A stretch of 64,000 bases of DNA, from NCBI RefSeq assembly GCF_016894385.1, contig NZ_CP069811.1, positions 1,464,501 through 1,528,500 of the forward strand, in the 5' to 3' direction. Shown in pieces: positions 35,672 to 44,507 of this stretch. Numbering within the stretch: position 1 is the first letter of the stretch; each line of letters starts with the position of its first letter. The translations under genes and the position numbers were made by a program. This DNA comes from Cupriavidus oxalaticus (lineage in GTDB: Bacteria > Pseudomonadota > Gammaproteobacteria > Burkholderiales > Burkholderiaceae). Below the pieces are notes generated by a model, which saw only the letters and a program-made list of their open reading frames with translations, did not search any database and had not been told where the DNA came from.

Positions 35672-36046
35672 ACCTGTCTCCTGCCATCTATGCGTGGTCT
35701 TGCCGGATGCACCCGCGGCGGGACGCCGCGAGTCCGTGCTGCATAAGGTAATGGCCGCCCCTTACCTGCTTCTTACACGGGACGGAAATCGGCACCGGGT
35801 AAACGCTGAGTGAGGCGCGGGACAGGAGGCTCCGTGGCGATGCAGGTTGTTGGTTGGCATGGGCGAAGCATGCGCCGCAAGTCGGGCCGCGCCCAACACT
35901 CTTGTCATGGACGAATGGCATTTCCCCGGGTAGCGGGACGTCGGCGGCATTTTCTTCCTGCTGCATCCGGTGGCATGGCTCCTGCGTAAATGCAAGCGGA
36001 CGCTGCAGCGTTCTGCCCTCTTGTTACCGTTCATCGGAGTACCGCC
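35672..36046. other. Divergent promoter region, 375 bases, no gene seen
   Basis: The region separates the actP operon from the repeat-protein gene. It holds two small inverted repeats: CGCGGCG/CGCCGCG around 35714-35730 in the probable actP leader, and AGGTAA/TTACCT at 35746-35767. The second could be an operator. No promoter boxes can be assigned with confidence. Confidence 0.4.
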
Positions 36047-36649
36047 ATGATTCGACAGTTCGCTCACACGTTCCTTGCCACCGCCGCGATCGCAGTGGCC
36101 TGCACCGCCAGCATCGCCCATGCCGCCGCGCCGCGCGACAGCGGGCACGCCGGCGACAGGTACGGCTATTCCTTCCGGGTCGGCATGCACGATGTGTTCA
36201 GCGACGGCGCACGCGCCGCGCGCTTCGACGTGTTTGCCGAAGGCGCCAGCACCGAGGCTTCTTCCGCCGATGCGCAGTCTCTCTCTGGCCTGGACCGCAG
36301 CGGTGTATCTGCTGATCCGGCGCGCAAGTTCGACGTCCATTCCGACGGTGCACTGGCAGGCATGGACCGCAGCGGTGTATCTGCTGACCCGGCGCGCAAG
36401 TTCGACGTCTATTCCGACGGTGCACTGGCAGGCATGGACCGCAGCGGTGTATCTGCTGACCCGGCGCGCAAGTTCGACGTCCATTCCGACGGTGCACTGG
36501 CAGGCATGGACCGCAGCGGTGTATCTGCTGACCCGGCGCGCAAGTTCGACGTCTATTCCGACGGTGCACTGGCAGGCATGGACCGCAGTGGTGTATCGGC
36601 TGACCCGGCGCGCAAGTTCAACATCTATTCCGATGGGGCATTGGCGTAA
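36047..36649 (+). CDS. Secreted protein with five 24-residue tandem repeats
   Basis: The ATG at 36047 (GGAG upstream) gives 200 residues: a signal peptide cleaved near AHAAAP, a short N-domain containing RFDVFAEGAS, then five near-identical units of the form DRSGVSADPARKFDVYSDGALAG to the very end. Each unit has the core FDV[HYF]SDGA, also present once, degenerate, in the N-domain (ARFDVFAEGA). The mature protein would be periplasmic or secreted, acidic and repetitive, with no cysteines. The family is not recognised; similar FDVxxDGA proteins occur in Cupriavidus (from memory). Confidence 0.75.
   Translation: MIRQFAHTFLATAAIAVACTASIAHAAAPRDSGHAGDRYGYSFRVGMHDVFSDGARAARFDVFAEGASTEASSADAQSLSGLDRSGVSADPARKFDVHSDGALAGMDRSGVSADPARKFDVYSDGALAGMDRSGVSADPARKFDVHSDGALAGMDRSGVSADPARKFDVYSDGALAGMDRSGVSADPARKFNIYSDGALA
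36290..36646 (+). repeat. 72 bp coding tandem repeat, five units
   Basis: Units begin at 36290, 36362, 36434, 36506 and 36578. Units 1 and 3 code DVHSDG and units 2 and 4 DVYSDG, so the pattern repeats every 144 bases. Unit 5 has drifted at its end (FNIYSDG). Confidence 0.95.
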
Positions 36650-36665
36650 GCAATGCCAGTATGGC

Positions 36666-38657
36666 CTAGCCGTACTTTCCGCCCGGCAGCGCCATCTCGA
36701 TTGCGCTGATCAGTTCCTGCAGGCGCAGCGGCTTCGCGCACACCGCATCGAAGCCGCTTTCCATTGCCAGGCGCCGGTCCTGCTGGCGCGTGAAGGCAGT
36801 CAGGGCGATGGCCGGCACGCGCGCACGCGAGCCGATCACCTCCTGCGCGCGCACTTCGCGGATCAGTTCATTGCCGTCGCGGCCAGGCAAGCCGATGTCG
36901 CTGATGATCAGGTCCGGCGTGGCGTTCGCCATCTGCGCCAGGGCGTCGTCGCTGTCGCGCGCGCTGCGGACATGGGCGCCAAAGCCGGCCAGAACAGCAG
37001 TGAGGGCGGCGGCCGCATCGCTGTCGTCTTCCACCAGCACGATATCGAGTCCGTCCAGCCGCGTTGCGCTCTCGGGTGCGCCGTGGTCAGTGCCGCCGGC
37101 AGCTTCTGCCTCCACTGGCTCGGTGCCCGGCGCCAGCAGCGGGATGGCAATTTCAAAGGTGGCGCCGCGGCCGACCCCCTCGCTGCAGGCCTGCACGATG
37201 CCGCCATGCATCTCGGCCAGGCGCTTGACGATCGCCAGCCCGAGGCCCAGCCCGCCCTGCACGCGACGATCGGGGCCGTCGCTCTGGGTAAAGCGGTCGA
37301 ACAGGAACGGCAGGAATTCCGGATCGATGCCGCGGCCCGCGTCGACCACGGACACGCTCAGCGTTTCCGCATCGGACTTCGCGATCACGCGGACGGTGGC
37401 GCCTTCAGGCGAGAATTTGATCGCGTTGGAGATGAGGTTCCACAGGATCTGCTGGAAGCGCGCCGGATCGAGCCACGCAGCCTGCGCCAGGTCCGGGGCG
37501 ATCTGCGCCTCCAGCGACAACCGCTTCTCGCTGGCCATCAGTTGCATGCTGTCGAGTGCGGCGCGGATGAGGGTGGCCGGGTTCGCCATCTCGCGTTCCA
37601 GCTTCATCTTGCCGACATTGAGCAGCGACACGTCGACCAGGTCGGCCACCAGCCGCTGCTGGATGGCGACATTGCGCTCGATCGCGGCCAGCCCGCGGCG
37701 TCCTTCGTCCGTGCTCACGTGGCGGCCCAGCACATGGGTCCAGACGGAGATCACATTGAGCGGGTTGCGCAGCTCGTGCGAGAGGATGGCGATGAACTCG
37801 TCCTTCATGCGGTTCACGCGTTCGACGCCGGCACGCGCCGCCTGTTCGCGCTCGATCAGCTGCTCCTGCTGGCGTTCAAGGTGCAGCCGAGCGGTAGCAT
37901 CAGCCACGACCGCGACCCGGTCGCCCGATGGCGTGGTAGGGGAAATGCTCCAGTCGAGGTGGACCGGCGCGCCCGCCGCGTCGAGCAGCGGAAACGATCC
38001 CTGCCAGCCCTCGTCCGCGGACACCGTGGCTTCGGCGGCGCGCGCGGCGAAATCGCCGGGCGCGAGCGCGGTGACGGGCCGCCCGAGCAGGTCCGAGGCG
38101 GGCCTGCGCAGGAGCGTCAGCATGGCGGGATTGACGTCGACCAGCTGGCCGCGAGAGTCAAGCACGCAGATGCCGCTGGTGGCCTGCTGGTAGATCGCGC
38201 GCAGGCGTGCCTCGCTCTCGCGCAACGAGCGCTCGGCAGCGGCGGCGCGGGCCAGCGCCGAAACCGTGGCAATCAGCACCTCCGGCTCGGCGGGATGGAT
38301 CAGGTAGGCCGTGGCGCCGGCATTCAGCCCGCGCGCCTTGTCGTAATCCTGCACGTAGGTGGCTGACAAATGGATCACCGGCAGCGTCGCGGTGTCCGGG
38401 TCGGCACGCAGCTGTTCGCACACCTGGATGCCGTCGATATCGGGCAGGTTGACGTCGAGCACCATCACGGAAATGCCCGGCGTCCGCGCCAGGCGCAATG
38501 CGTCCAGCCCGCAATCGGCCTCGATCGTGTGGAACCCGGCGTTCTTGAGCACGCGCACGGTTGAATAGCGGGTGACCGTATTGTCGTCGACGACCAGTAC
38601 GCGCGGAGGCGACGCGGAGGGTGCTGCCTGCTGCGTGGATAGCGGGTCCATGATCAT
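36666..38657 (-). CDS. Hybrid histidine kinase: REC-PAS-HisKA-HATPase-REC
   Basis: This 663-residue protein starts at 38657, overlapping the upstream kinase stop as ATGA. Domains in order: receiver 1 (VLVVDDN, phospho-Asp D68 in VLDVNLPD), PAS (about 150-265), HisKA with H294 in ILSHELRNPLN, HATPase (IVKRLAEMHGG with GLGLGLAI), and receiver 2 (VLVEDD, Asp about 587 in ISDIGLPG, Lys in CAKPL). With no output domain it is a phosphorelay hub. It is the last gene of the stressosome operon, so it may carry the stress signal onward. Confidence 0.92.
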   Translation of the reverse strand: MIMDPLSTQQAAPSASPPRVLVVDDNTVTRYSTVRVLKNAGFHTIEADCGLDALRLARTPGISVMVLDVNLPDIDGIQVCEQLRADPDTATLPVIHLSATYVQDYDKARGLNAGATAYLIHPAEPEVLIATVSALARAAAAERSLRESEARLRAIYQQATSGICVLDSRGQLVDVNPAMLTLLRRPASDLLGRPVTALAPGDFAARAAEATVSADEGWQGSFPLLDAAGAPVHLDWSISPTTPSGDRVAVVADATARLHLERQQEQLIEREQAARAGVERVNRMKDEFIAILSHELRNPLNVISVWTHVLGRHVSTDEGRRGLAAIERNVAIQQRLVADLVDVSLLNVGKMKLEREMANPATLIRAALDSMQLMASEKRLSLEAQIAPDLAQAAWLDPARFQQILWNLISNAIKFSPEGATVRVIAKSDAETLSVSVVDAGRGIDPEFLPFLFDRFTQSDGPDRRVQGGLGLGLAIVKRLAEMHGGIVQACSEGVGRGATFEIAIPLLAPGTEPVEAEAAGGTDHGAPESATRLDGLDIVLVEDDSDAAAALTAVLAGFGAHVRSARDSDDALAQMANATPDLIISDIGLPGRDGNELIREVRAQEVIGSRARVPAIALTAFTRQQDRRLAMESGFDAVCAKPLRLQELISAIEMALPGGKYG

Positions 38658-39562
38658 GCCTTTGCCGCGCCCGCCGCCGGTGCCGCCGGATAGGTGAGCG
38701 GCAGCGTGACATAGAAGCGCGAGCCCACATCGACTTCGCTCTCGAAACCGACCCGCCCCCCGAGCACCTCGGCCAGCCGCTTGCTGAGCGCAAGGCCAAG
38801 CCCGGAGCCGCGCAGGCGGCGCTGCAGCGGCGAATCGATCTGGATGAAATCCTGGAAGACCGCGCCGTGCATCGCCGCCGGGATGCCGATGCCGGTGTCC
38901 TTGACCGAGAACATGACCTCGCCCTCGCCCACCAGCCTCGCGGAAACGCGGACTTCGCCGCGCGGCGTGAACTTGAGCGCGTTGGAGATGAAGTTGCGCA
39001 GGATCTGCGACAGCTTGCGGTCGTCGCTGTAGAGGGTCGGCACCTCGTGCGGTTCTTCGAAGATCAGCGACACCTCGGGATTGGTCAGCACCGGCTTGAA
39101 CATGCCGCGCAGCGTATCGAACAGCGCGACCATGTCGAACCATGCCGGCGACACGTCGACCCTGCCCGCTTCGAGCTTGGCCAGGTCGAGCAGGTCGTTG
39201 ACCATGTCGGCAAACTCCGCGGCGGTCTCGCGCACGAACATCACCTGCCGTTCCTGCTCGGTGGTGAGCGGACCGTCCACGCGATCGATCAGCAGGCGGG
39301 TGATGCTCTGGATCGCGACGATGGGGGTGCGGAACTCATGGCTCATGTACGCCAGGAAGCGGCTTTTCAGCTCAGTTGCCTGGCGCAGCTGTTCCGCCTG
39401 GATGTCCAGTTCCGCATACAGCGCCAGCACGCCGCGGTTGGTTTCCTCCAGTTCCGCGCGCAGGCCCTCGCATTCGCGGGTCTTGACGTCCAGTGCCTCG
39501 CGCAGTTCGTCCGGGCTCAGCGGGGTGTCCGGCGGCAAGCGGGAGTAGTCGTGGCTGGCCAT
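38654..39562 (-). CDS. Sensor histidine kinase, cytoplasmic
   Basis: This 302-residue kinase has no membrane segment. An N-terminal coiled coil (EALDVKTRECEGLRAELEETNRGVLALYAELDIQAEQL) leads into HisKA with H75 in AYMSHEFRTP and an HATPase (NFISNALKFTP, DTGIGIP, RGSGLGLAL). The coiled-coil input without a sensor domain fits control by partner proteins. It lies between the SpoIIE phosphatase (2 bases away) and the hybrid kinase (ATGA overlap). Confidence 0.92.
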   Translation of the reverse strand: MASHDYSRLPPDTPLSPDELREALDVKTRECEGLRAELEETNRGVLALYAELDIQAEQLRQATELKSRFLAYMSHEFRTPIVAIQSITRLLIDRVDGPLTTEQERQVMFVRETAAEFADMVNDLLDLAKLEAGRVDVSPAWFDMVALFDTLRGMFKPVLTNPEVSLIFEEPHEVPTLYSDDRKLSQILRNFISNALKFTPRGEVRVSARLVGEGEVMFSVKDTGIGIPAAMHGAVFQDFIQIDSPLQRRLRGSGLGLALSKRLAEVLGGRVGFESEVDVGSRFYVTLPLTYPAAPAAGAAKA

Positions 39563-39564
39563 GC

Positions 39565-40617
39565 TCAGTCCTCGGCGCGGCGGATCACGAGCACGGTGGC
39601 GTCATCCCGGCCCCGGCCGAACTTCCACACGATAAACGCGGCGATCACCGTGGGGTCGTGCCGCAACAGGCTGGCATCGTCCAGTTGCCAGCGCGACTGC
39701 ACGCCATCCGAGAACAGGATCACCAGCGCATAGGCCGGCCAATCCATCACCTGTTCCTGGATGGCACGCACCTGGATTCCGGGGGTGCCGTGCTGCGGCA
39801 GCAGCGTGCGGTCGGCAGTGCCGGAGACAACGCGGCCCATCACATTGCCGGCCCCGGCGAAATGGATCTGGTTGCCGCGCAGGTCCAGCCGCGCCGCGCT
39901 GACCGCCGCGCCGCGGGTGCTGCGCAGTGCCGCGTGGGCGCGTTCGACGACCTGGGACGGGCTGGCGCAGGGCATTTCGGCAAACGCCGCCAGCGCGGCC
40001 CTGGCTGCGTCGGCGGCCAGCGGGCCATGACCGAGGCCGTCGGCAAGCACCACGTCGGCGCCGCCATCGTGCTGAGCGATGGCCCAGCCGTCGCCGCTGA
40101 CCTGCTCGCCGGGTGCGGCCAGGTACACCGCCCCGACCGTGCAGCCGCGCACCGGCGCCGCGCGCACCGGGCACCCGCCCGGCTCCCGGTCGCGGTAGAA
40201 CCGCGCCAGGATGACACTGCCCTGGCCGAAGCGGCTGACGATATCGAAGTCGTCGGCCATGCGCTGGACGGCGCCCAGCCCCTGCCCGGCGCTGCCCGCG
40301 CTGGAATAGCCGTCGCGCATGCAGGCCTGCGGATCTCGCATGCCGGGCCCGTTGTCCAGCGAGATCAGCTCGATCAGCATGCTGTCGCCAGCGGCGCGGG
40401 CGCCAATCAACATCCGGCCGCCGACGGCATGGCGTACCAGGTTGCTGGAAAGCTCATTCGCCACCACGGCGATCCGGCCCGCCAGCACGCTGTCAAAGGC
40501 CAGCCGCGCGCACAGGTCGGCTGCGAGCCGGCGGGCTTCACCAACCCGGCTGGCGTCGTCCATGGGCAGCACGGCGGCGGGACCCTGTTCGCTACTTCCA
40601 CCGAGTGACACTGACAC
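39565..40617 (-). CDS. ATP-binding SpoIIE-type PP2C phosphatase (RsbX/RsbU-like)
   Basis: The start is GTG at 40617, because GGAGG lies 6 bases upstream; this overlaps the rsbT end by 26 bases. The 350-residue protein joins an N-terminal anti-sigma/HATPase-like domain (ANELSSNLVRHAVGGRM, DNGPGMRDPQ, GQGLGAVQRMAD) to a C-terminal SpoIIE phosphatase (DVVLADGLGHGPLAADAARAAL, FSDGVQSRW, GRDDATVLVIRR). It probably dephosphorylates RsbR/RsbS to reset the stressosome. The fused HATPase domain is extra compared with RsbX. Confidence 0.88.
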   Translation of the reverse strand: MSVSLGGSSEQGPAAVLPMDDASRVGEARRLAADLCARLAFDSVLAGRIAVVANELSSNLVRHAVGGRMLIGARAAGDSMLIELISLDNGPGMRDPQACMRDGYSSAGSAGQGLGAVQRMADDFDIVSRFGQGSVILARFYRDREPGGCPVRAAPVRGCTVGAVYLAAPGEQVSGDGWAIAQHDGGADVVLADGLGHGPLAADAARAALAAFAEMPCASPSQVVERAHAALRSTRGAAVSAARLDLRGNQIHFAGAGNVMGRVVSGTADRTLLPQHGTPGIQVRAIQEQVMDWPAYALVILFSDGVQSRWQLDDASLLRHDPTVIAAFIVWKFGRGRDDATVLVIRRAED

Positions 40618-41005
40618 AGGTTCCCTCCCCGACTTGGGTGCGGATGGAGAAATCGTTGACCAGCCGGCGGCTGCCGGACAGGCCCATGCCCAGGCCATTG
40701 CCGGTGGTCCAGCCATCGGTCAGCGCCAGGTCTACGTCCCGGATGCCGGGGCCCTTGTCCTCGAAATGCAGCCGCAGGCCGCGGCGACCGCCTTCGTCGA
40801 TGAATTCCCAGCGCATTTCGCCGCCATGGCCGTGCACCACGGCATTGCGGGCCAGTTCGCTGGCCGCCGTAATCATCTTAGTCTGCTCGACCAGAGAGAA
40901 CTGCAACTGGCCGGTCAGCGTACGCACGACGGAACGGGCCTGCACGACATCGCGCTCGTCGCGCAGCGGGATCGTTCCGGTGGTACCGAGCGCGGATTGC
41001 GTCAC
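40592..41005 (-). CDS. rsbT: Serine/threonine kinase RsbT
   Basis: This 137-residue GHKL kinase has the N box SELARNAVVHGHGG, the G1 box FEDKGPGIRD and GNGLGMGLSGSRRLVNDF. RsbT phosphorylates RsbS and RsbR and is freed when the stressosome is activated. Its start overlaps the rsbS stop as ATGA (41002-41005). The length matches the family. Confidence 0.92.
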   Translation of the reverse strand: MTQSALGTTGTIPLRDERDVVQARSVVRTLTGQLQFSLVEQTKMITAASELARNAVVHGHGGEMRWEFIDEGGRRGLRLHFEDKGPGIRDVDLALTDGWTTGNGLGMGLSGSRRLVNDFSIRTQVGEGTCVSVTRWK

Positions 41006-41370
41006 CTGAGCTCACCTCGCTGCGCCTTGTCCAGCAACGCCATGCCGCGCTCGACGTTGAGCGCGGTCCTGACGCCGCTCAGGGGCAGTCCCAGTTCCAC
41101 CAGCGTGATCGCCACGGCCGGGCGGATGCCGACCACGACCGTGGCCGCGCCCAGGATGCGGGCGATGTCGGAAATGCCGATGAACATGCGGCCGATAAAC
41201 GAATCGACCATTTCCAGCGCCGACACGTCGATCAGCACGCCGCGCGCCGTGTTCTGCTCGATGCTGGCCGCCAGGTCTTCCTGCAGCCGCAGCGCGGTCT
41301 GGTCCTGCATGTCGATCTGGATCGTGACCAGCAGGTAGGACCCCATCCGCAGGATCGGAATGCGCTCCAT
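41002..41370 (-). CDS. rsbS: Stressosome STAS protein RsbS
   Basis: This 122-residue single STAS domain has the RsbS phosphorylation site conserved as Ser57 in VDSFIGRMF, followed by IRPAVAITLVELGLPL. RsbS with RsbR forms the stressosome core that holds RsbT. It lies 14 bases after rsbR. Confidence 0.92.
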   Translation of the reverse strand: MERIPILRMGSYLLVTIQIDMQDQTALRLQEDLAASIEQNTARGVLIDVSALEMVDSFIGRMFIGISDIARILGAATVVVGIRPAVAITLVELGLPLSGVRTALNVERGMALLDKAQRGELR

Positions 41371-41384
41371 GCGTGTGCCTCCGG

Positions 41385-42245
41385 TCAGGGGACCGGCTGG
41401 CGGGACACGGTGTGCCCCGTCAGCCGCATGGCGGTGGCCAGCGCGTCGGCCAGCGTCGCCTTGGTCACGATGTCCTGCAGGTCGATGCCCAGATGCACGA
41501 TGGTCTGCGCAATCTGCGGCCGGATCCCGCTGATGATGCTCTCCGCGCCCATCAGCCGGATCGCGGTCACCGTCTTCAGCAGGTGCTGGGCCACCAGCGT
41601 GTCGACCGTCGGCACGCCGGTGATGTCGATGATGGCCAGCGTGGAGCCGGTTTCGACGATGCGCTGCAGCAGGGTTTCCAGCACCAGCTGGGCACGGCTG
41701 CTGTCCAGCGTGCCGATCAGCGGTACCGCCAGCACCCCTTCCCACAGCTTGATCACCGGCGTCGACAGCTCGAGCAGTTCCTGCTGCTGGCGCCGGATCA
41801 TGTCCTCGCGGCTGCGCTGGTAGGTGGACATGGTCCACTGCGCCATGCGATCGACGATGGCGGACGCGGCCCAGATCACTTCGATCTGCGCTTCCAGATT
41901 GCTGCGGTCGCGCTGCAGCGCCTCGAAGATCGGCCGTTTGAGCGCCAACACGAAGCCGCTGGTCACGTCCGCGGTCTCGCCTTGCGCGGCACGCGAAGCC
42001 GACAGGTCGGCGAGCGCCTCGCGCAGCTCGGCGAACGGCGCCTGCTCGAAGCCGCCTGCATCGCCATTGGCGTGCAAGGCTGCCTGGAGGCTCCGCAGGA
42101 TGGAGCGTTGCTCCCTGGCAAGAGTGCCGGTGCAGCCGCGGCCGCCGGACAACGACTGGTATTCGGTGGCCCAGCTATCGGCCAGGTTCTCGGCTTCGGC
42201 GTGCAACAGGTCGGCAAGGCGCTGGTTTTCTGGACGCATGGGCAT
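41385..42245 (-). CDS. rsbR: Stressosome co-antagonist RsbR
   Basis: I use the ATG at 42245 (286 residues); the frame is open to 42371, with another Met at 42332. The N-terminal part is an all-helical, probably globin-like sensor fold without a recognisable haem motif. The C-terminal STAS domain reads STPVIKLWEGVLAVPLIGTLDSSRAQ, DITGVPTVDTLVAQHLL, GIRPQIAQTIVHLGIDL. Against Bacillus RsbRA from memory, T171 corresponds to Ser182 and T205 to Thr216. It heads the six-gene operon. Confidence 0.88.
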   Translation of the reverse strand: MPMRPENQRLADLLHAEAENLADSWATEYQSLSGGRGCTGTLAREQRSILRSLQAALHANGDAGGFEQAPFAELREALADLSASRAAQGETADVTSGFVLALKRPIFEALQRDRSNLEAQIEVIWAASAIVDRMAQWTMSTYQRSREDMIRRQQQELLELSTPVIKLWEGVLAVPLIGTLDSSRAQLVLETLLQRIVETGSTLAIIDITGVPTVDTLVAQHLLKTVTAIRLMGAESIISGIRPQIAQTIVHLGIDLQDIVTKATLADALATAMRLTGHTVSRQPVP

Positions 42246-42342
42246 GGCGAAAGTTGTAAGCGATGCACAGGAGACAAAGGAGTCGGTGTCAGTGCATTCT
42301 AGGAGGGATTGATAGCTCACTCCACGTTTCATCGCGCCCTGC

Positions 42343-42393
42343 AAAACAAAGACGGGCGCAGCCGTGTGCACTGCCGTGCACGGCTGCGCCCGT
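42343..42393 (-). terminator. Intrinsic terminator downstream of the FadB/FadJ-like gene
   Basis: The arms 42352-42366 and 42379-42393 are perfect 15 bp complements (ACGGGCGCAGCCGTG) with a 12-base loop. On the minus strand the stem is followed by CTTTGTTTTG. It separates the catabolic gene from the rsbR operon. Confidence 0.75.
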
Positions 42394-42425
42394 TCCGGGC
42401 CTGTCCTATGCCCGATGGCTGATGG

Positions 42426-44507
<2,082 letters not shown>

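Follow-up and report, generated by a model that had tools for sequence, protein, structure and literature searches.

The window analysed here, a 64,000 nt stretch of Cupriavidus oxalaticus contig NZ_CP069811.1, contains a single tight minus-strand run of six genes, from position 42245 to 36666 and in the order rsbR-rsbS-rsbT-X-H1-H2, in which the genes for RsbR, RsbS and RsbT are followed by those for a phosphatase (X), a soluble histidine kinase (H1) and a hybrid histidine kinase (H2). We read this run as a stressosome-to-phosphorelay cassette in which freed RsbT would act on a linker helix of H1, an interpretation that we favour with modest confidence. Gene content, gene order, the catalytic residues and the association of the helix with RsbT are direct observations. 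The features, with domains called by Pfam in the host genome of 6.69 Mb (two contigs), are the following:

41385..42245, minus strand: RsbR-type stressosome sensor/scaffold, 286 aa (RsbRD_N PF14361, 2.9e-15; STAS PF01740, 8.7e-14)
41002..41370, minus strand: RsbS, 122 aa, with Ser57 within VDSFIG (Pfam STAS)
40592..41005, minus strand: RsbT switch kinase, 137 aa, GTG start (Pfam HATPase_c / HATPase_c_2)
39565..40617, minus strand: X, RsbX-type PP2C/SpoIIE phosphatase with an N-terminal RsbT/RsbW-like ATPase domain, 350 aa, GTG start (Pfam)
40210..40557, minus strand: HATPase_c_2 domain of X (Pfam)
39577..40068, minus strand: SpoIIE/PP2C domain of X (Pfam)
38654..39562, minus strand: H1, soluble histidine kinase, 302 aa, linker helix plus HisKA plus HATPase_c (Pfam; phospho-histidine motif SHEFRTP, His75)
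39353..39505, minus strand: H1 residues 20-70, RsbT-associated linker helix with core T41-N-R-G-V-L46, then ALYAELD (homologue conservation and profile matches)
36666..38657, minus strand: H2, hybrid kinase REC-PAS-HisKA-HATPase-REC, 663 aa (Pfam)

An earlier note on this DNA had assigned six genes with these domains to the run, and Pfam and the ORF coordinates located all of them where it had put them. It had also claimed translational overlaps at most junctions; with starts inferred from sequence, three of the five do overlap (S/T by 4 nt, T/X by 26 nt and H1/H2 by 4 nt), and the other two are separated by 14 nt (R/S) and 2 nt (X/H1).

The kinase H1 lacks a REC domain, and no Pfam domain was found in the approximately 60 residues that precede its HisKA. 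Pfam gave no match to RsbU_N (PF08673) in H1 or anywhere in the genome, which rules out H1 as an RsbU_N-bearing effector. Instead, this region holds the helix ETNRGVLALYAELD, placed 34 residues before the phospho-histidine (T41 to His75). Its core T-N-R-G-x-x-A-L, and the spacing of 34 from Thr to His, were found in 120/120 of the best H1 homologues, which had been chosen by similarity to H1 residues 1-70, that is, to the same stretch whose conservation is counted. The helix also occurs in kinases with an RsbT-like domain fused before it; in these the same spacing was found in 110 of 120 homologues, likewise chosen by similarity to the stretch scored, with seven of the remainder having no HE[FLI]R motif and three no helix pattern. 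The H1 N-terminus was matched by 3571 of 3733 scored candidates (E<=1e-3), and the N-terminal 260 residues of the fused form by 7693 of 7996 at the same threshold, in a search that scored only candidates sharing most words. By their names, fused relatives occur in Acidobacteriota and Actinomycetota. A model of 300 residues of one of them, L112 (pLDDT 87.1, pTM 0.62), shows the helix core (212-217) inside one helix (177-263) that continues into HisKA, and an N-terminal domain resembling SpoIIAB/RsbW, the placement of which on the helix cannot be judged because of the low pTM.

A profile of the helix, searched over 398 Pseudomonadota genomes with at most 17 candidates scored per genome, so that matches may be missed, returned 18 matches in 17 genomes. 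Examination of all 18 neighbourhoods revealed that 17 of the matches lie directly downstream of R-S-T-X genes. The 18th and weakest (L147, 8018-10521, in genome G056) is in a kinase carrying its own RsbT-like domain before a weak helix and divergent from a lone RsbR; in this 19.9-kb stretch no credible RsbS, separate RsbT or RsbX was called, and it is possibly a minimal, two-gene version of the system. An RsbT-like domain is fused before the helix in 9 of the 18 matches, the 18th included, although that of L028 is degenerate (40 bits). Within this sample, then, the helix occurs only with RsbT or with a copy of RsbT, which argues strongly for a functional link between the two.

The gene set as a whole recurs in many genera (Cupriavidus, Ramlibacter, Variovorax, Acidovorax, Roseateles, Comamonas and others), and its composition is therefore not due to chance. 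This was seen in 80 loci, the best of 491 confirmed stretches retrieved using only the H1 helix as query, a set that leans to near relatives and includes near-duplicates of one another or of other loci (the contigs of L024/L037 and of L026/L107 are equally long; the profiles of L101 and L102 are identical). By score, all six genes are present in 75 of the 80 loci, the other five being cut by contig ends, and the six stop codons follow the order R-S-T-X-H1-H2 in 73; of the two six-gene loci without ordered stops, the frames of X and H1 are merged into one in L077, and L113 has a weak H2 counterpart (124 bits). This strict co-inheritance of the six genes supports the wiring of the stressosome to two kinases, as had been claimed from the letters alone. 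The module is nevertheless patchy, since RsbS matches were found in only 13 of 300 genomes of the same order, 10 of which (the window included) have R, S, T, X, a helix-bearing H1 and H2. The remaining three (L033-L035) contain stressosomes with other followers, without a TNRG helix, and their X proteins are short (about 200 aa). As separate observations, the follower kinase of L033 (5392-9206) carries RsbU_N and is followed by a second RsbT-like gene, and L034 and L035 are divergent R-S-T-X modules in which the RsbS phosphosite has no serine (VMDLTD / VMDLDA).

For RsbS, the best PDB match was chain 6qcm_A, named RsbS (E 2.6e-30), which we take to be the Listeria protein, followed by 6jhk_A (2.4e-28), and Ser57 aligns with the serine of these RsbS chains. 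The STAS half of RsbR aligns to PDB chains named RsbR; its VDT motif retains the Thr, and Ser stands at the place of the Thr of GTIDT in RsbR chain 7b0u, both positions being presumably RsbR phosphosites. As to RsbT, the ATP-site residues E45, N49, D78, G80, G82 and G101 are present in 97/97 of the proteins from helix loci, and G103 in 96/97; in these counts, as in those for X, matches below 45 bits were dropped beforehand and domain classes were assigned by a length rule. An equivalent of Asp92 is also present in RsbT from the window. RsbR thus described has STAS and an N-terminal sensor, RsbS is a single domain with its serine, and RsbT has an intact GHKL ATP site; judged from the genes alone, they are a complete stressosome gene set, and Pfam, PDB alignment and ATP-site residues agree with the previous assignment of RsbR, RsbS (Ser57) and RsbT. 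The RsbS search retrieved only one RsbS and one RsbR from the genome.

No candidate for RsbV or RsbW was found genome-wide by STAS and HATPase_c_2 searches, and no sigma-factor model was run for SigB. STAS was matched seven times: by RsbR and RsbS themselves, by four long frames resembling SulP and by an MlaB-like protein, which adjoins an MlaC-like gene and is the sole other small STAS protein in the genome (names read from sequence). Besides those in RsbT and X, there are 15 HATPase_c_2 matches, all of them in frames of at least 386 aa and, therefore, too long for RsbW. The earlier note had stated that RsbV and RsbW are missing and that the output must accordingly differ from that of Bacillus; the first statement agrees with these searches and the second follows from it.

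The phosphatase X follows rsbT directly, and it is of the RsbX type with an added HATPase_c_2 domain. The top fold matches of its phosphatase half are 3ZT9 (TM 0.90 by target), a phosphatase from a stressosome paper, and RsbX 3W40, and sequence matches are likewise; its ATPase half matches the fold of SpoIIAB, a relative of RsbT/RsbW. The ATP-site residues and an Asp92-type Asp were present in 95/95 X ATPase domains counted, and in an alignment of 85 X proteins scoring above 180 the PP2C residues G179, D180, D197, G198, D308 and D342 were present in 85/85 and D343 in 84/85, the catalytic residues of both halves being invariant except for D343. The AlphaFold model (pLDDT 92.8, pTM 0.93) places the two domains firmly with respect to each other. 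The description of X as a SpoIIE phosphatase with an extra N-terminal HATPase domain therefore stands, with the correction that, on the basis of the 3ZT9 and 3W40 matches, X is an RsbX-like feedback or reset enzyme and not an output phosphatase like RsbU. RsbX acts on RsbS and RsbR in B. subtilis (PMC9237108), and the RsbX of globin-type clusters is described as a single-domain protein (Heinz 2022, PMC9237108), so that the two-domain X is a real difference.

In H2, the phospho-histidine is conserved in 81/81 sequences and the receiver aspartates in 79/81, with two gapped. Its counterparts vary in their parts: L135 is REC-PAS-HK-REC, L141 is REC-HK, and L137 contains a C-terminal REC and a second one that we take to be N-terminal. 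We infer from the N-terminal REC common to these counterparts that phosphate transfer from H1 would be directed there. As H2 has no output domain, the final regulator would be elsewhere. A conserved neighbour as output was rejected: when the ORFs adjoining the cassette on the H2 and RsbR sides were clustered across the 80 loci, no cluster exceeded seven loci (7/80), although the ORFs were called crudely and several of the clusters seem to represent wrong reading frames. Similarly, the seven Hpt matches in the genome, four in a 2039-aa frame and one each in frames of 678, 1249 and 242 aa, could not be linked to H2 as its dedicated partner. Separately, the 242-aa Hpt frame (contig 1, around 1061956; L173) adjoins a LuxR-like response regulator and is a candidate partner for the terminal REC of H2.

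In the mechanism that we propose, RsbR and RsbS would build the stressosome core holding RsbT. A signal received through RsbRD_N would lead RsbT to phosphorylate RsbS (at Ser57) and RsbR and then to depart, and freed RsbT would engage the N-terminal helix of H1, through its T-x-R-G segment, much as RsbT engages the linker of RsbU in Bacillus. This engagement would switch H1 on or off; H1 may then transfer phosphate to H2, most likely onto its N-terminal REC, and the C-terminal REC of H2 would pass it to an unlinked phosphotransfer protein or regulator. Phosphatase X would strip phosphate from RsbS and RsbR, resetting the complex, and its extra ATPase domain probably directs it to the STAS proteins or turns it into a kinase/phosphatase working in both directions. 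The release of RsbT, its contact with H1, the transfer from H1 to H2 and the role of the ATPase domain of X are all steps that we infer.

The H1 helix is a plausible candidate for the RsbT docking site by analogy with RsbU. RsbU of B. subtilis is activated when RsbT orders its helical (coiled-coil) linker; the sites at which mutation affects RsbU include T89, R91, G92 and Q94, a pairing of R91 with RsbT D92 is predicted, with a charge swap partly restoring activity, and RsbU Q94L is active without RsbT (PMC12143880). Over RsbU positions 89-94, H1 reads T-N-R-G-V-L, and the RsbT proteins from helix loci have Asp at the D92 position in 96/97. At the level of single residues we regard this analogy as a lead. 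A broader proposal, which we advance tentatively and as less probable than the cassette itself, is that histidine kinases with (E/D)TNRGVxALYxEL at a fixed register before the phospho-histidine form a large class of direct RsbT effectors, whether or not an RsbT-like domain is fused to them, and that X combines an RsbT-like kinase with an RsbX phosphatase.

Several observations weigh against a contact of RsbT with this helix. The likeness to RsbU is limited to [ST]-x-R, plus G in B. subtilis relatives, and [ST]-x-R is not rare in such a helix: among 120 RsbU sequences, L90 and Q94 are constant, R91 is nearly so, and S or T prevails at position 89 and D or H, rather than a conserved G, at position 92. 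The motif is also missing in 11 of the 12 readable Pseudomonadota RsbU_N proteins (from 14 matches), often with RsbT nearby, indicating that RsbT does not need it everywhere; with these proteins, and with L033-L035 lacking the TNRG helix, TxRG was discarded as a universal RsbT tag. Likewise, Asp92 is not specific to helix loci, since the position is also acidic in 12 of the 13 RsbT proteins of helix-less loci. The RsbT-like domain of the fused kinases has Gly at 92 in 120/120, so that the fusion cannot be read as a plain case of RsbT docking in cis. L145 and L146 have the helix in front of a HisKA that lacks HE[FLI]R, and neither yielded an H2; the helix thus behaves as a movable unit. Heinz 2022 (PMC9237108) obtained no positive result for an interaction of VvRsbT with VvD1. 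Lastly, H1 and H2 could form a pair independent of the stressosome, with a promoter in common.

It is unlikely that RsbT, instead of binding H1, phosphorylates it at Thr41 of the helix. Thr41 is invariant (89/89 aligned H1) and the ATP site of RsbT is conserved (97/97; G103 96/97), as this alternative would have it, but in the model of a relative this Thr lies in the middle of a long helix, which would be an unusual substrate, and RsbU is not known to be phosphorylated. The activation of RsbU is through binding (PMC12143880). Somewhat less likely is that the output is X, which would phosphorylate and dephosphorylate a STAS protein or engage H1, with RsbT merely tuning the stressosome: the conservation of the ATP site and Asp92-type loop in all 95 X domains and of the PP2C residues (85/85; D343 84) is compatible with it, as is the case of SypE, which joins an RsbW-like kinase, REC and PP2C acting on one STAS protein (PMC12826045), whereas the proximity of the PP2C half to 3ZT9 and RsbX 3W40, the action of RsbX on RsbS/RsbR in B. 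subtilis (PMC9237108) and the MlaB-like nature of the sole other small STAS protein in the genome point away from it. Least likely is a reading in which H1 and H2 make up a two-component pair of their own that has the operon in common with the stressosome and no direct contact with it, as the PAS of H2 and the other followers in L033-L035 might suggest, given the occurrence of the helix with RsbT in 17 of the 18 sampled places and the fusion of an RsbT-like domain to it in nine of these 18 places, the 18th among them.

With respect to expression and surroundings, no sigma-70-like sites were found in 36400-42700, the region upstream of rsbR included, and there is one terminator-like site upstream of rsbR, which is below the shuffle mean. 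Among the NCBIfam families listed for the six proteins, for the two kinases the best 25 of 78 and the best 25 of 157, no family was matched at its cut-off. Directly downstream of H2 lies a convergent neighbour, ORF 35990-36649 (plus strand), with a signal-peptide-like start and a 72-bp tandem repeat in five copies (36287-36645, plus strand, 95% matches) encoding the 24-residue unit GMDRSGVSADPARKFDVYSDGALA.

The earlier note had considered such a switch little studied in beta-proteobacteria. Open-access work is indeed thin, as we found no title or abstract opening treating the cassette or the helix, and in PMC12189002 the words 'stressosome' and 'Cupriavidus' occur only in the reference list; however, stressosomes with two-component genes are already published, in Vibrio and among the phosphorelay followers of Heinz 2022, and the cassette is therefore a variant and not a new class. 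What is new here is the H1 helix as a concrete candidate contact, the recurrence of the six genes and the conservation of the active sites of X. For the question of how stressosomes signal in bacteria without SigB, the cassette offers a compact single-operon system: H1 residues T41, R43 and L46, with the Asp92 equivalent of RsbT, make the RsbT-kinase question testable with few proteins. The helix can further serve as a search tag, and its strongest value is the tie between a class of histidine kinases and RsbT, a testable answer to the question of how stressosomes lacking RsbU could reach their output. If correct, RsbT gripping the helix would turn a serine-kinase partner switch into a histidine phosphorelay.

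The closest known arrangement is that of Vibrio vulnificus, in which, as here, rsbRSTX is directly followed by two-component genes, the D1-D2 pair, without a SigB cascade (PMC9237108, PMC10014275), and mutants of the two halves are phenotypically similar (PMC10014275). The Vibrio system has a haem globin sensor in RsbR, an RsbX of the kind described for such clusters as single-domain and a pair thought to act on c-di-GMP, whereas the cassette has an RsbRD_N sensor, a two-domain X, a short H1 and a REC-PAS-HK-REC H2 without output domain. According to Heinz 2022 (PMC9237108), there are eleven types of followers, phosphorelays included, and some followers have RsbU_N, with most of the downstream proteins considered lacking it. 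The phosphorelay-type RSTX modules in that survey (for example 'Dogia' and Ruegeria) resemble the cassette in having the stressosome followed by HisKA/REC proteins, and differ in their globin RsbR. They are likely to overlap with the fused variants, the fused-H1 relatives including a Dongia protein (P0243) and a 'SigmaB asociated two-component system sensor protein' (P0250). The combination of domains in X has parallels in Vibrio fischeri SypE and Mycobacterium tuberculosis Rv1364c (3KE6), which also join an RsbW-like kinase domain to a PP2C phosphatase, although SypE additionally has REC (PMC12826045) and 3KE6 aligns only partially (TM 0.45-0.47). Finally, the SigB stressosome of B. subtilis shares with the cassette the RsbR/S/T core and an effector addressed via a helix before its catalytic domain, as we propose for H1; here, however, the effector would be a kinase without RsbU_N, and no RsbV/RsbW was found in the genome.

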